Below are positions 51,321-56,768 of a stretch of 64,000 nt of DNA, in pieces. The stretch comes from Streptomyces hygroscopicus (GTDB lineage: Bacteria; Actinomycetota; Actinomycetes; Streptomycetales; Streptomycetaceae), in NCBI GenBank assembly GCA_002021875.1, contig CP018627.1, positions 8,804,001 through 8,868,000 on the forward strand, written 5' to 3'. A program made the position numbers and the translations under genes. The stretch's first letter is position 1. Every line of letters starts with the position of its first letter. Below the pieces are notes generated by a model. The model searched no databases and was not told the origin of the DNA. It was given only the letters and a program-made list of their open reading frames with translations.

Positions 51321-52832
51321 ATGACTGATCACATAACGGAGGCGGTGAGCTGGTGTCTGGCCGCCGCGCTTCTCGTCGTCCTGGTGCTTCTGATCCGCCA
51401 GCGGCAGATCACCGCCGGAGTCCGCAGGCGCAACGCCACTCTCGAGGACAGCCTGCGGTCCCGTGACGAGGAGGTGCAGCACCTCGTCGACGTACGCCTC
51501 CCGTCGATCGCCGATGTGCTGAGCCAGCCCGGCCCGCTGCCGGGCCTGCGGGACGAGAAACTGGCCGGTACGGCCTTCGCCCAGAGCCTGCACGCCGTCA
51601 TGGAACAGTTCACCCGCGCGGTGGACAAGGCACAGACGCGCGCCGACGCCTCCGCCAAGGCGGCGCTCAAGGCGTCCATGCGAGCCGTCCAGGGACTCGC
51701 CAACGAGCAGCAGGTGTCCATCTCCGAGATGCAGGAGCGGCACGACAACCCCGATGTGCTGCGGGACCTGCTGGAGATCGACCACGCCAACGCCCAGTTC
51801 GGCCGGCGCGCCCAGGCCATCGCCGTGCTCTGCGGCTCCTGGCCCGGCCGTCAGCGGCTGGCCTCCTCGCTGACCGATGTCGTCCGCGGCTCCAAGTCGC
51901 GTATCCGCGACTACCAGCGGGTGCAGGTGCACGCCCTGATCGACGTCGCCGTGGTGAGCCGGGCCGTGGAGCCCGTCGTGCTCGCGGTCGCCGAGCTGCT
52001 GGACAACGCCGCCCGCCACTCGCAGCCCAACACCTCCGTGGAGGTCAGCCTCCAGCCGGTGCACAACGGGGCCTGCATCGTGATCGACGACGCCGGTGTG
52101 GGCATGGACGGCCTGGAGGTCCAGCGGGCCGCCGCCCTGCTCTCCGGCCAGCGCGCCGTGGACGTCTCCCGGCTCGGCGATCCGCCGCAGTTCGGCTTCG
52201 CCGTGGTGGGCCTGCTGGCCGCGCGGTACGGCTTCAGCGTCTCGGTGGACACCCGGTCCCCGTACGGCGGTGTGCGTGCCGTGCTGTTCCTCCCGAGCGA
52301 GCTGCTCACCCATATCGACCCCGACGGACGGTCGGGCACCGCGGCGCAGGACCCCGAGGGCGCCGAGCCGCTGCACACCCTGCCCTCCCGCCGCACCCGC
52401 GCCCCCAGAAGAGCACGGCAGGCGCAGACCGCTCCGGCCGAGGCCCAGGCCCCGCCCCGGGCCCAGGTCCCGCCCCAGGCCCCGCCTCTGGCGCCCGCTC
52501 CCACTCCCGCGCCCGCCCCGGCCCCGGCACCCGCCCCGGCGCCTCAGCCGTCCCTGGGCGACGACGAGGCCACGCGCGTGTACGGCACCACGCAGGGCGG
52601 TCTGCCCAAGCGCCGCCGCAGGCAGGCCGCCGCCACTCCGCCGGCCGCCGACTGGTCCATTGGGGCCGGGCGGACCGGCGCCGCCGAATCCGACGACACC
52701 GGCGCGCACCGCGCGCGTTCGGCGGAGGAAACCGCCTCGCGGTTGGGCGCGTTCGCGCGCGGCACCCGCTCCGGCCGTGCCGACACCCAGGACTCCGCCC
52801 CTCACCATGACGAAGGGAATCGCCAGGCATGA
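51321..52832 (+). CDS. cvnA: Conservon protein CvnA, histidine-kinase-like sensor
   Basis: A 503-residue protein: one N-terminal transmembrane helix (about 8-26), a helical linker, and a GHKL ATPase domain (AELLDNAARHS, DDAGVGM, GFAVVGLLAARYG). Instead of a canonical HisKA box it has the LLEIDHANAQFGRRAQ helix. From about residue 340 to the end it is a Pro/Ala-rich disordered tail. This is the kinase-like member of conservons, which in Streptomyces work like a G-protein-coupled module. ATG 51321 has GAGG five bases upstream. It overlaps cvnB by ATGA. Confidence 0.92.
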   Translation: MTDHITEAVSWCLAAALLVVLVLLIRQRQITAGVRRRNATLEDSLRSRDEEVQHLVDVRLPSIADVLSQPGPLPGLRDEKLAGTAFAQSLHAVMEQFTRAVDKAQTRADASAKAALKASMRAVQGLANEQQVSISEMQERHDNPDVLRDLLEIDHANAQFGRRAQAIAVLCGSWPGRQRLASSLTDVVRGSKSRIRDYQRVQVHALIDVAVVSRAVEPVVLAVAELLDNAARHSQPNTSVEVSLQPVHNGACIVIDDAGVGMDGLEVQRAAALLSGQRAVDVSRLGDPPQFGFAVVGLLAARYGFSVSVDTRSPYGGVRAVLFLPSELLTHIDPDGRSGTAAQDPEGAEPLHTLPSRRTRAPRRARQAQTAPAEAQAPPRAQVPPQAPPLAPAPTPAPAPAPAPAPAPQPSLGDDEATRVYGTTQGGLPKRRRRQAAATPPAADWSIGAGRTGAAESDDTGAHRARSAEETASRLGAFARGTRSGRADTQDSAPHHDEGNRQA

Positions 52833-53257
52833 ACGACCATCTCAACAACGAGCTCGGCTGGATGCTCGACGAGGTCGTCAAGATGCCGGAGGCACGGCAC
52901 GCGATCCTGCTCTCCGCGGACGGGATGCTGCGGGCGTACTCCGAGGGCATCGCCCGCGACGAGGCCGAGCGCCAGGCCGCCGCACTCTCCGGGCTGCAGT
53001 CGATCAGCCGCTCCACCTCCGAGTTCTGTGATCCGAACGAGACGCCCTGGCAGCAGACGCTGGTCGAGTTCGTCGGCGGGTACGTCTTCCTGATCGCCGC
53101 CGGGCCCGGCGCGTATCTGGCGGTCTCGGCCACCGAGGCCGTGGACATGGAGGCGGTCAGCTACCGGATGCAGAAGCTGGTCGACCGGCTCGGCAAGGAG
53201 CTCACCAGCCCGCCGCGGCAGGGCCTCCCGCGGCAGGGGATCGGCAGCCGCGCATGA
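52829..53257 (+). CDS. cvnB: Conservon protein CvnB, roadblock/LC7 domain
   Basis: A 142-residue Roadblock/LC7 protein (ELGWMLDEVVKMPEARHAIL ... LIAAGPGAYLAV). In conservons it is thought to act as a GTPase-activating or scaffold partner of CvnD, similar to MglB. Overlaps cvnA and cvnC by ATGA on both sides. Cytoplasmic. Confidence 0.93.
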   Translation: MNDHLNNELGWMLDEVVKMPEARHAILLSADGMLRAYSEGIARDEAERQAAALSGLQSISRSTSEFCDPNETPWQQTLVEFVGGYVFLIAAGPGAYLAVSATEAVDMEAVSYRMQKLVDRLGKELTSPPRQGLPRQGIGSRA

Positions 53258-53610
53258 GTCCGGGGCGGCGCGAACGAGGGTTGGTACGGCCGTATGTGGT
53301 CACCGACGGCCGTGCCTACCCGACTCGCAACACCTTCGACCTGGTGACCCTGGTCATGGCCCACCCCGACCGGCCGCTCACCGGGCTCAGCCCCGAGAAG
53401 CGGCGGGTCATGGAGCTGTGCCTGGGCGGCGCGCTCTCGGTGGCCGAGGTCTCCGGGTACCTGGAGCTGCCCGTCAGCGTCACCAAGGTCCTGCTCGGTG
53501 ACCTCGTGGACAGCGGCCACGTCTCCACGCGGTCCCCGATCCCCGCCGCCGACGTCCCCGACACCCAGCTGCTGCAGGAGGTGCTCGATGGACTCCGCGC
53601 TCGCCTCTGA
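53254..53610 (+). CDS. cvnC: Conservon protein CvnC, DUF742
   Basis: A 118-residue DUF742 protein: GRRERGLVRPYVVTDGRAYP start and a central helix-turn-helix-like segment ALSVAEVSGYLELPVSVTKV, ending LLQEVLDGLRARL. The DUF742 family is the conserved third conservon member. It overlaps cvnB by ATGA and its last 23 bases overlap cvnD. Confidence 0.93.
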   Translation: MSPGRRERGLVRPYVVTDGRAYPTRNTFDLVTLVMAHPDRPLTGLSPEKRRVMELCLGGALSVAEVSGYLELPVSVTKVLLGDLVDSGHVSTRSPIPAADVPDTQLLQEVLDGLRARL

Positions 53611-54202
53611 CGACAAGGCGGTCTATCTGCCCCATACGGTGCGGGTGGCGGCGAAGATCCTGGTCGTCGGACACTTCGCCGTCGGCAAGACGACCTACGT
53701 GGGCTCGCTGTCCGAGATCCGGCCGCTGCGCACCGAGGAGACGATGACCCAGGCCGGTGCGCTCATCGACGACCTGCGGGGCACCGAGGACAAGACGACC
53801 ACCACCGTCGCCATGGACTTCGGCCGGCTCACCCTCAGCGAGTCCCTGGTGCTCTATCTGTTCGGCGCGCCGGGACAGCGGCGCTTCACCCGGCTGTGGC
53901 GGGACATGACGAACGGGGCGCTGGGCGCGCTCGTCCTGGCCGACACCCGGCGGCTGGAGCAGTCCTTCCCGGTGATGGCCGTCCTGGAGGAGCACGGACT
54001 GCCGTACGCCGTCGCCGTCAACCAGTTCGAGGGCTCTCCCCGCTTCGCGGAGCCGGAGGTCAGGGAGGCCCTCGATCTGCTTCCGGAAACCCCCCTGGTG
54101 ACCTGTGACGCCCGGGACCGGATCTCCTCCACCCACGCGCTGATCGCCCTCGTCCAATATCTACAGGCCCGCCAGACCCGTAGTTCTCAGGAGATTGTGT
54201 GA
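53588..54202 (+). CDS. cvnD: Conservon protein CvnD, small GTPase
   Basis: A 204-residue Ras-like ATP/GTP-binding protein. P-loop GHFAVGKTT (about residues 25-33), switch II FGAPGQRRF (G3 DxxG replaced by APGQ), and NQFE at the NKxD position, all typical for CvnD. ATG 53588 (MDSALASDD) is the start; the open frame from 53498 adds Pro/Ser shadow sequence. It is expected to be localised at the membrane via CvnA. It overlaps the P450 gene by GTGA. Confidence 0.93.
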   Translation: MDSALASDDKAVYLPHTVRVAAKILVVGHFAVGKTTYVGSLSEIRPLRTEETMTQAGALIDDLRGTEDKTTTTVAMDFGRLTLSESLVLYLFGAPGQRRFTRLWRDMTNGALGALVLADTRRLEQSFPVMAVLEEHGLPYAVAVNQFEGSPRFAEPEVREALDLLPETPLVTCDARDRISSTHALIALVQYLQARQTRSSQEIV

Positions 54203-55671
54203 CCAACCGTCCAGCCGCCGGCCCCGTTCCCCCACCGGGCTGCCCCGCGCACGCGGGCCCCGCCGAGGCCGTGGGCGCCACCGGGCAGAGCGCGGCCGTA
54301 CCGATGTACGGTCCCGAGTTCGCCGCCGACCCGCACGGCACCTACGCGCGGATGCGCGCCACCCATGGGCCGATCGCACCGGTCGAGCTGACGCCGGGGG
54401 TGTACGCCTCGCTGGTCACCAGCTACCCGCTCGGCCTGGAGATCCTGCGCGACACCGAACGGTTCGCCAAGGACCCGCGCGGCTGGCGGGCGATGGCGGA
54501 CGGGAGCGTGGGGCCGGACAACCCGGTCGCCCCGATGATGATGTACCGGCCGAACGCGCTGTTCTGCGACGGCGAGGCACACGCCCGGCTGCGCGGGGCG
54601 ATCACCGACAGCCTGGACCGGGTGGACCCGCACGCCCTCAGCGAGTACGTCGAGCGCAGCGCCGAGACGCTGATCGACGCCTTCGCCTCCCGGGGCGAGG
54701 CCGAACTGATCACCGAGTACGCGTCGGTGCTTCCGCTGCTGGTCTTCAACCAGCTCTTCGGCGCACGCCCCGCGGACGGGCCGAAGCTGGTCGAGACGAT
54801 GATGAAGCTCTTCGACAGCGGCGAGGAGGCGGCGGCGGCCAACGACGAGCTGCTCCACTGGATCTCCGGCCTGCTGGCGGACAAGCGCCGGCAGCTCTCC
54901 GCCGACGTCACCTCCTGGCTGATCGCGCATCCCTCGCAGCTCACCGACGACGAGCTGATGCAGCAGATGATCCTGCTGATGGCGGCCGGTACCGACCCCC
55001 AGCAGAACCTGATCGCCAACGCGCTGCGCCTGCTGCTGTCGGACGACCGCTTCGCCGGTGAGCTGTCCGGCGGCAGCATGCCCGTCCAGGACGCCCTGGA
55101 CGAGGTCCTGTGGAACGACCCGCCGATGGCCAACTACGGCACCCGGTTCCCCCGGTACGACTGCGACGTGGCGGGCGTACGGCTGCGCAAGGGCGAACCG
55201 GTGCTCATCAGCTACGCCGCAGCCAACCACGAGGCGTCCCTGGCCTCCGACCGCCGGTCCGGCAACAAGGCCCATCTGGCCTGGAGCGCGGGCGCCCACC
55301 GCTGCCCCGCCGAGCGGCCCGCCCGGGTGATCGCCTCCGTGGCCATCGAGCGGCTCCTGGACCGCCTCCCGGACATGGAACTGGCGGTCCCCGTCGAGCG
55401 GCTGACCTGGCGGACCGGGCCCTTCACCCGCGCCCTGGCCGCCCTGCCGGTGCGCTTCCCCGCCCAAGCGGTCGCCGTGAACGAGCCGTTCGCGGCGTCC
55501 GTGTCCGAGCCGGTCCGATTCGACGAGACCTCTGGAGTCAGCCAATGGAACCCCGTCCCATCGTCCTCGACCCCGCCGGCCGCGACATCGCCGGAGAGGC
55601 AGCCCGAGTCGCCGCAGGCGGCGAGGCGACGCTTGTTGAGCTTCCTGACGGCGTGGTGGCGTGGGCAATAA
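54199..55671 (+). CDS. Cytochrome P450 of the CYP157 family, lacking ExxR
   Basis: A 490-residue P450 ending the conservon operon. The haem Cys369 is present in AWSAGAHRCPAERPA (the usual FGxGxHxC with Trp and Ala changes). The K-helix ExxR is replaced by Glu302-Val-Leu-Trp305 (EVLW), and the I-helix reads AGTDPQQ (263-269) without the usual acid-threonine pair. Loss of ExxR is the published hallmark of CYP157 proteins, which are linked to conservons. GTG 54199 overlaps the cvnD stop. After the P450 fold (about residue 430) there is a 60-residue tail, whose last 127 bases overlap the next P450 gene. Catalytic role uncertain. Confidence 0.88.
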   Translation: MTNRPAAGPVPPPGCPAHAGPAEAVGATGQSAAVPMYGPEFAADPHGTYARMRATHGPIAPVELTPGVYASLVTSYPLGLEILRDTERFAKDPRGWRAMADGSVGPDNPVAPMMMYRPNALFCDGEAHARLRGAITDSLDRVDPHALSEYVERSAETLIDAFASRGEAELITEYASVLPLLVFNQLFGARPADGPKLVETMMKLFDSGEEAAAANDELLHWISGLLADKRRQLSADVTSWLIAHPSQLTDDELMQQMILLMAAGTDPQQNLIANALRLLLSDDRFAGELSGGSMPVQDALDEVLWNDPPMANYGTRFPRYDCDVAGVRLRKGEPVLISYAAANHEASLASDRRSGNKAHLAWSAGAHRCPAERPARVIASVAIERLLDRLPDMELAVPVERLTWRTGPFTRALAALPVRFPAQAVAVNEPFAASVSEPVRFDETSGVSQWNPVPSSSTPPAATSPERQPESPQAARRRLLSFLTAWWRGQ

Positions 55672-56768
55672 CCCGCCAGCGGACCCTCAAGGAGCTGCTG
55701 ACCGACCCCCGGGTCTCCAAGGACCCCCGGCAGCACTGGCCCGTGTGGATCAACGGTGAGATCACGCCCGAGTGGCCGCTGATCACCTGGGTCGCCGTCG
55801 AGAACATGTTCACCGCCTACGGCGGCGACCACCGGCGGCTGCGCACCCTGGTCTCCAAGGCGTTCACCGCCCGGCGCACCGCCGCCCTGCGGCCGCGCGT
55901 CGAGGAGATCTGCACCACGCTCCTGGACGACCTGGCCGCCGCGCCGGGCGAGGTGGTCGACCTGCGCGAGGCGTACGCGTACCCGCTGCCGATCCAGGTG
56001 ATCTCCGAGCTGTTCGGGCTCGACGACGAGAACCTGCGCGAGCGGATGCGCCGGGTCGTGGACAGCATCTTCCACACCTCCGCCTCCCCGGAGGAGGTCA
56101 CCGCCACCTTCAACGAGATGTACGCCGTCCTCGGCGAGCTGGTGGCCACCAAGCGCGAGCGGCCCGGCGACGACCTCACCAGCGGGCTGATCGCGGTGCG
56201 GGACGAGGAGAGCGGCTCCAAGCTCAGCGAGAAGGAGCTGACCGACACCCTCGCCCTGTTCCTCTCGGCCGGCCATGAGACCACGGTCAACCTCCTGGAC
56301 AACGCCATCCACGCGCTGCTCACCCGGCCCGAGCAGCTCGAGCACGTCCGGGCCGGCCGGGCCACCTGGGAGGACGTGATCGAGGAGACGCTGCGGCACT
56401 CCGCCCCGGTCGCCAACCTGCCACTGCGCTACGCCGTGGAGGACATCGAGCTGGACAGCGGCGTGGTGCTGCACCAGGGCGACGCGATCCTGGCCGCCTA
56501 CGCGGCCGCCGGACGCGACCCGGAGGTGCACGGCGCGGACGCGGACCGCTTCGACGTCACCCGGCGGCTCAAGAGCCACCTGGCGTTCGGCCACGGCGTC
56601 CATCTGTGCGTCGGCGCCCCGCTGGGCCGGCTGGAGGCCGCGATCGCGCTCCCGGCGCTCTTCGACCGCTTCCCCGGGCTCACGCTCGCGTCCGGGCAGG
56701 AGCCGCTGGAGCCCGTGGAGTCCTTCATCTCCAACGGCCACCGCACGCTGCCCGCGCGCCTGGCCTGA
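55545..56768 (+). CDS. Cytochrome P450, CYP154-like
   Basis: A 407-residue soluble P450 with all standard motifs: I-helix AGHETT (242-247), ExxR as Glu281-Thr-Leu-Arg284, and haem loop FGHGVHLCVGAPLGR with Cys355. It resembles the CYP154 family, the usual conservon partner of CYP157. ATG 55545 has TGGAG seven bases upstream and lies 127 bases inside the preceding gene, in another frame; the open frame from 55110 is a shadow of the first P450. Electron donors (ferredoxin/reductase) are not in the window. Substrate unknown; CYP154 enzymes hydroxylate steroids or macrolides in vitro. Confidence 0.9.
   Translation: MEPRPIVLDPAGRDIAGEAARVAAGGEATLVELPDGVVAWAITRQRTLKELLTDPRVSKDPRQHWPVWINGEITPEWPLITWVAVENMFTAYGGDHRRLRTLVSKAFTARRTAALRPRVEEICTTLLDDLAAAPGEVVDLREAYAYPLPIQVISELFGLDDENLRERMRRVVDSIFHTSASPEEVTATFNEMYAVLGELVATKRERPGDDLTSGLIAVRDEESGSKLSEKELTDTLALFLSAGHETTVNLLDNAIHALLTRPEQLEHVRAGRATWEDVIEETLRHSAPVANLPLRYAVEDIELDSGVVLHQGDAILAAYAAAGRDPEVHGADADRFDVTRRLKSHLAFGHGVHLCVGAPLGRLEAAIALPALFDRFPGLTLASGQEPLEPVESFISNGHRTLPARLA

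Follow-up and report, generated by a model that had tools for sequence, protein, structure and literature searches.

The window analyzed here, a stretch of 64,000 nucleotides from a Streptomyces hygroscopicus genome of 12.0 Mb, carries a complete conservon on its forward strand: according to the open reading frames and Pfam matches in these 64 kb, cvnA, cvnB, cvnC and cvnD are followed by a CYP157-like cvnE and then by a CYP154 gene. The first gene, cvnA (51321..52832), encodes a histidine-kinase-like protein with a HATPase_c domain. Its hydropathy exceeds 1.6 in windows at residues ~4-34, the one N-terminal hydrophobic segment, with a weaker stretch at residues 205-227 that adjoins the HATPase domain, and neither Pfam nor a NIT search of the host genome gave a NIT sensor-domain match at this gene. 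The C-terminal part of the same protein (52300-52832) is long, Pro/Ala-rich and probably disordered, and carries GLPKRRRRQ at residue 427. Then come cvnB (52829..53257; Robl_LC7, Roadblock/LC7, E 2.6e-18), cvnC (53254..53610; DUF742, E 3e-37) and cvnD (53588..54202; ATP_bind_1, E 5.7e-27), the last encoding a Ras-like GTPase whose start we place by inference at the ATG at 53588, while the list of open reading frames has a GTG at 53498. Directly downstream, and overlapping cvnD by 4 bases, cvnE (54199..55671) begins with GTG and encodes a P450 of 490 amino acids. Beyond its core, this protein has a linker that is probably disordered (residues 421-471; 55459..55611) and a Trp-rich C-terminal tail (residues 472-490; 55612..55668) that ends ARRRLLSFLTAWWRGQ. 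The CYP154 gene (55545..56768, within the open reading frame 55110-56768 on the same strand) matches Pfam p450 and has normal ExxR, helix I and haem-loop motifs. It starts at the ATG at 55545, with GGAG at 55534-55537, so that the 3′ end of the CYP157 gene and the 5′ end of the CYP154 gene overlap by 127 nt (55545..55671) in different frames.

The statements on the family made below rest on several sets of sequences. CYP157-like proteins were collected from the host genome, from 41 genomes of the genus (the host included) and from 296 genomes of the class; a match was present in 41/41 genus genomes (weakest best E-value 2.6e-74) and, at 1e-40, in 70/296 class genomes. The alignment comprises 146 CYP157-like proteins, the window protein included, which were chosen by similarity to the latter, represent part of the listed matches and are a non-random sample; a fragment (L021) and a P450 with ExxR (L022) were left out. 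The 80 loci from named organisms are the best 80 of 573, and 77 of them are complete. Within this set the nearest loci, from Streptomyces violaceusniger and S. sabulosicollis, have 90-91% protein identity. For the CYP157 itself, identity is 60% to the nearest copy in its own genome, 97% to the nearest other loci and 91% to the nearest named locus.

The initial annotation had read cvnE as a P450 with EVLW in place of ExxR, with AGTDPQQ in helix I and with a haem loop beginning AWSAGAHRC, and these readings were borne out: the three motifs occupy residues 302-305, 263-269 and 361-369, respectively, of the 54199..55671 translation. The Arg of the ExxR motif of the P450 superfamily is lacking, and the Cys haem ligand before helix L is present as C369. 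Residues E302 to R316 align with PikC without a gap, which places W305 opposite the Arg of ExxR; in the alignment with 6a7j, the chain with the highest score, a one-residue gap falls at the W305 site and is compensated by a gap after it. Among the 146 proteins, 121 carry W at position 305, three carry R and 22 carry another residue, and W stands at the position of the ExxR Arg in 79/80 named loci (best 80 of 573). On the evidence of these alignments, the EVLW reading is not due to chance. In the tree, the three proteins with R at this position (L060, L088 and L153) lie within groups of W and H forms, as though the Arg had been regained.

The P450 fold is retained in the AlphaFold2 model (mean pLDDT 85.9), and Foldseek lists chains of CYP154C5, CYP154C1 and PikC among its first rows with TM scores of 0.85-0.89 (by target length). 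Pfam p450 gave no match to the protein at the 1e-3 threshold, and Pfam-based counts of P450s may hence omit CYP157s of this kind. In helix I, the acidic residue D266 is kept and the Thr is replaced by P267, so that the acid-Thr pair is absent. The claim that helix I lacks its Thr thus stands for this protein, with the correction that the acid remains and that the change is clade specific: position 267 is P in 83/146 and T in 26/146 aligned proteins, and many CYP157C-type relatives retain ETT. The further claim that the cysteine alone is intact went too far. C369 and G365 are invariant (146/146), P370 is kept in 143/146, and H128 (140/146), H367 (136/146) and R132 (124/146) are largely retained, with R in 65/146 and H in 53/146 at position 316. 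These positions are taken to have the haem-binding roles of their P450cam counterparts. Moreover, E302 is E in 59/146. Since the Cys and the loop Gly are invariant while the motif loss is family-wide, the haem loop is held fixed and the K-helix pair not. All 46 downstream CYP154s of at least 300 amino acids have ExxR as well as ETT in helix I, which makes the loss of motifs a trait of the CYP157 side. A Cys-Pro pair (PPPGCPAH type; 54241-54246 in the window) also occurs in the first 45 residues of 119/164 CYP157-like proteins; CP pairs can be haem-regulatory motifs.

The missing ExxR is not new in kind. Rupasinghe and others (2006, FEBS Letters) reportedly gave the primary report on the ExxR exception of CYP157. 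According to PMC3599690, CYP157A2 of S. avermitilis and Svu023/157A have EVLW, CYP157C1 and CYP157C2 have EQSLW and Svu024/157C has EQILW; the linkage of CYP157 to conservons is mentioned there as well. P450 genes in conservons 9 to 12 of S. coelicolor are described in PMC8510531. The window protein resembles CYP157A and CYP157C of Streptomyces in its EVLW K helix with the published Trp, in its kept Cys and in the conservon, cvnA to cvnD, directly upstream. In the aligned set, cvnC and/or cvnD were detected upstream of 127/146 CYP157-like proteins, the window included, and likewise in 75/80 named loci (best 80 of 573); in 19/146 loci neither cvnC nor cvnD was detected by one-way tblastn with the window proteins as queries and short flanks, a search in which misses are possible. 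Membership of the window protein in CYP157, as proposed in the initial annotation, is supported by EVLW and the complete conservon, the tree being one that holds no named CYP157 member. Within its complete conservon the gene takes the place of cvnE, and it is of the CYP157A type. It differs from the published CYP157A and CYP157C in its 127-nt overlap with CYP154 and its Trp tail, and from the published cvnE genes in the overlapping CYP154 gene that follows. Both features go beyond the initial annotation, and no description of either was found in the accessible parts of the open-licence literature, including PMC3599690 and PMC7369989; the words tail, tryptophan and C-terminal are absent from the text of the 2026 mBio paper (PMC13343842).

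That paper bears directly on which conservon component CvnE works with. It names the P450-type accessory protein CvnE, states that neither accessory type had previously been assessed biochemically, and reports that CvnE and CvnF accessory proteins go with CvnA kinases that have no sensor domain, that CvnF8 stimulates CvnA8 in vitro and that AlphaFold2 predicts contact of CvnE11 with the HATPase domains of CvnA11 (PMC13343842). In the literature consulted, no P450-type accessory protein was found to have been assayed biochemically. The window conservon agrees with published CvnE conservons in its order cvnA-B-C-D-E and in a CvnA without an extracytoplasmic sensor domain, as judged from the missing NIT match and the single N-terminal hydrophobic segment. 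Moreover, the host genome has 12 DUF742 genes in 12 conservons, and in six of these a CYP157 gene comes right after cvnD. No NIT match at 1e-3 was found in these six conservons. Every one of the other six has a match, which exceeds the cut-off in five and falls short of it, with 22.8 bits, in the sixth; over the 12 conservons, CYP157 and NIT matches are thus mutually exclusive. This split agrees with the published rule and implicates CvnA, and the sensorless kinase is a better-fitting partner for CvnE than CvnD. In the conservon with the weak NIT match (L258), a P450 with normal motifs (EELLR, AGHETT and FGVGAHSC) lies ~0.5 kb after cvnD, and three other CYP157 copies of the host genome (L013, L015 and L020) lie outside conservons.

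The C-terminal tail is widespread in the family. Where the sequence beyond the core is 40 residues or longer (113 of 164 CYP157-like proteins), W accounts for 248/2260 (11.0%) of the last 20 residues, 39/4933 (0.8%) of the linker and 672/46560 of the core; the linker between the core and the Trp-rich end varies greatly in length. By the rule that a tail requires at least 30 residues beyond the core and that its last 20 must hold a minimum of one W or two W/F, it is present in 108/164 proteins: in 13/13 with an overlapping CYP154 gene, in 1/34 with a separate one and in 94/117 with none found behind. The 77 complete named loci (from the best 80 of 573) give 20/20 for overlap, 51/54 without CYP154 and 2/3 counted as separate. 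Of the two separate loci with a tail, L178 (S. violaceusniger) is an overlap whose CYP154 goes out of frame just past it, possibly by sequencing error, and L256 lies at the rule limit of -90. Mutual exclusion between the tail and a separate CYP154 was considered (33/34 have no tail, and L072 has one stray W). It is not claimed, as the link is not independent on the tree (sign test, median p 0.5).

In the AlphaFold2 model of the window protein, pLDDT is 80 at residues 421-430 and 43-49, by tens, at 431-470, and the tail is modeled as a helix at 472-487 with pLDDT about 60-71. The distant CYP157 L082 has the same plan, with a confident core, a low-confidence linker and a terminal helix at ~60-71. 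An amphipathic tail helix is not indicated, the hydrophobic moment not being above that of shuffles (mean z 0.31 in 108 tails). The CvnF accessory proteins occupy the same place after cvnD and differ from CvnE in having a GAF domain instead of the P450. Of the four proteins behind cvnD that were sampled from 20 conservon stretches and confirmed as GAF proteins by Pfam, 0/4 have a Trp-rich tail after a linker, and two carry aromatic residues near the end; on this small sample, the tail is not a general CvnA-docking motif.

Outside the conservons, a group of nine P450s without ExxR was met (L116-L121, L131, L122 and L123), with MNRVVM in seven and VERAAL or VNRAAL in two. Those with MNRVVM have no helix I Thr either, and they carry a Trp-bearing tail (RSSLWRYL type). 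No conservon gene was detected beside any of the nine; a quick tree, which carried a long-branch warning, separates them from the remaining CYP157-like rows with support 100. One of them, L117, follows a berberine-bridge-type oxidase gene.

At the window locus, the last residues of the CYP157 tail, AWWRGQ and the stop, and the segment GVVAWAIT of CYP154 are encoded by common DNA. The third codon position of CYP154 is the second codon position of CYP157; at the two valines of the VV pair, GTG hence gives W, GTT gives L (F if C follows) and GTC gives S in the CYP157 frame. Overlaps were found in 33 loci by rule, the window included, and 29 remain after the near-duplicates L160, L179, L185 and L190 are dropped. 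In these 29 overlaps, valine codons that would yield Ser occur in 0/29, 0/29 and 2/27 cases in the overlap columns versus 55% elsewhere. The VV pair itself is encoded by GTG in 25 and 20 cases, by GTT in 4 and 5 and by GTC in 0/29 and 2/27 valines, whereas the other valines of the same CYP154 genes use GTC 401, GTG 318, GTT 9 and GTA 3 times. In 23 separate CYP154s, the first VV site is GTG in 12, GTC in eight, GTA in two and GTT in one. Since the loci share ancestry, binomial and Fisher p values come out too small, and a column-by-column comparison is fairer. Over 13 other conserved-valine columns of the 29 genes, the GTC fraction runs from 0.07 to 0.79 and GTT appears once; the three tail columns contain 14 GTT and two GTC codons. 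A fourth column coincides with the CYP157 stop and has GTG 14 and GTA 11 times and no GTC. A low GTC count (2/29) is also seen in one column that lies outside the overlap. The rare GTT codons of the tail columns are found across several genera (Wenjunlia, Kitasatospora, Saccharothrix and Actinopolyspora), as is predicted by selection for a hydrophobic tail.

These data suggest, from the near absence of Ser-giving valine codons in the overlap, that the tail is probably translated and selected. Over the tail overlap as a whole, synonymous change is only weakly suppressed: in 31 loci, differences at four-fold sites of CYP154 amount to 0.377 in the tail overlap, 0.356 in the linker overlap and 0.419 in the rest, and the signal is confined to the valine and stop columns. 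The named overlap loci include Actinosynnema, Kibdelosporangium, Saccharothrix and Actinopolyspora, and the lineage in which the tail would be dual-coded with the first strand of CYP154 extends over Streptomyces, Kitasatospora, Saccharothrix, Actinosynnema and other genera. In two loci the CYP154 start looks decayed; the CYP157 Trp tail is retained in one of them (L132) and the CYP157 end is altered in the other (L187). As an instance of probable dual coding the overlap is clear: the codons used in one gene depend on which residues the other gene keeps.

The reading that we favor, by a little over an even chance, is that CvnE is a haem-binding regulatory subunit of the conservon that acts on CvnA and is not a normal oxygenase. 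It is built on the loss of motifs, the kept haem positions, the operon linkage, the sensorless CvnA, the conservation of the tail and the codon signs of dual coding. CvnE has lost the Glu-Arg pair of the K helix and, in this lineage, also the Thr that activates oxygen, but its P450 fold probably still binds haem via Cys369, with H128, R132, R316 and H367 placed for the haem propionates. Most likely it would be a cytosolic sensing or modulating subunit that binds haem, and perhaps a gas or small molecule as well, and acts on the sensorless CvnA, which in turn would drive the CvnB/CvnC/CvnD GTPase switch. The Trp-rich tail on its flexible linker would anchor CvnE either to a partner or to the membrane next to CvnA. 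Of the two P450s, CYP154, whose overlapping gene is probably co-translated, would be the true oxygenase and would produce or clear the ligand. The suggestion in the initial annotation of a redox sensor or partner instead of an oxygenase is a plausible possibility.

An alternative is that CYP157 functions as a monooxygenase in which other contacts, with Trp305 in place of Arg, keep the K helix in position, and that the conservon only controls expression. The P450 fold of the model, the invariant Cys and loop Gly, the mostly kept propionate positions and the ETT of many CYP157C-type relatives agree with this proposal, and a secondary source, PMC3990721, calls Streptomyces P450s with EVLW and EQILW proved functional. 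However, in this lineage the helix I Thr has become Pro (P in 83/146), the operon is a signaling operon and the neighboring CYP154 with its normal motifs is the obvious oxygenase; we regard a monooxygenase as unlikely. CYP154A1 and CYP154C1 share the P450 fold with CYP157, and CYP154C structures head the fold search. Unlike CYP157, the CYP154s examined carry the normal ExxR and helix I Thr, and CYP154 is the neighbor gene; among solved chains this neighbor is closest to CYP154A1 (1ODO; 430.7 bits versus 345.8 for CYP154C1). A somewhat smaller probability attaches to a scaffold that has no haem or is indifferent to it and functions through protein contact alone, as the P450-derived glycosyltransferase activators do, in which a P450 fold has been turned to modulating a partner. 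The window protein matches the NCBIfam model for these, TIGR04515, at 69.2 bits, far below the cut-off of 343, and the low-confidence linker and tail would suit protein contacts. Nonetheless, the Cys and the loop Gly are invariant in 146/146 proteins, and for these residues a scaffold would have no use. The Cys, kept in CYP157, is not known to occur in the glycosyltransferase activators.

The partner named in the initial annotation, CvnD, would make CYP157 a redox effector of the GTPase. The position of cvnD directly upstream, with its 4-base overlap, speaks for such a pairing. It is nevertheless the weaker choice and improbable, since the accessory-protein study (PMC13343842) places these proteins at CvnA kinases without a sensor domain and the NIT split of the host genome is alike. 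The C-terminal tail, in turn, could be a mere by-product of reading into CYP154, as its letters follow from the CYP154 frame in overlapping loci and the four-fold sites of CYP154 differ little less in the tail overlap than in the rest (0.377 versus 0.419). To this we give only a slim chance: Trp-bearing ends occur in 94/117 CYP157s with no CYP154 found behind and in 51/54 such complete named loci, the valine codons of the overlap favor W and L over S, and the second valine is V in 12/13 overlapping CYP154s versus 0/34 separate copies.

Returning to CvnE as a haem-binding subunit that acts on CvnA, a more specific version can be put forward tentatively, at somewhat under an even chance. CYP157/CvnE would act via the selected Trp-rich helix, which would dock to a partner or to the membrane, and CYP154 would be co-coded with it; the former would be a tethered haem sensor whose partner makes or clears the ligand. 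If true, a regulator and an oxygenase would be locked in one overlapping, co-translated gene pair. This arrangement would bear on how conservons take in signals, and the tail would provide a concrete handle on CvnA and the GTPase switch.
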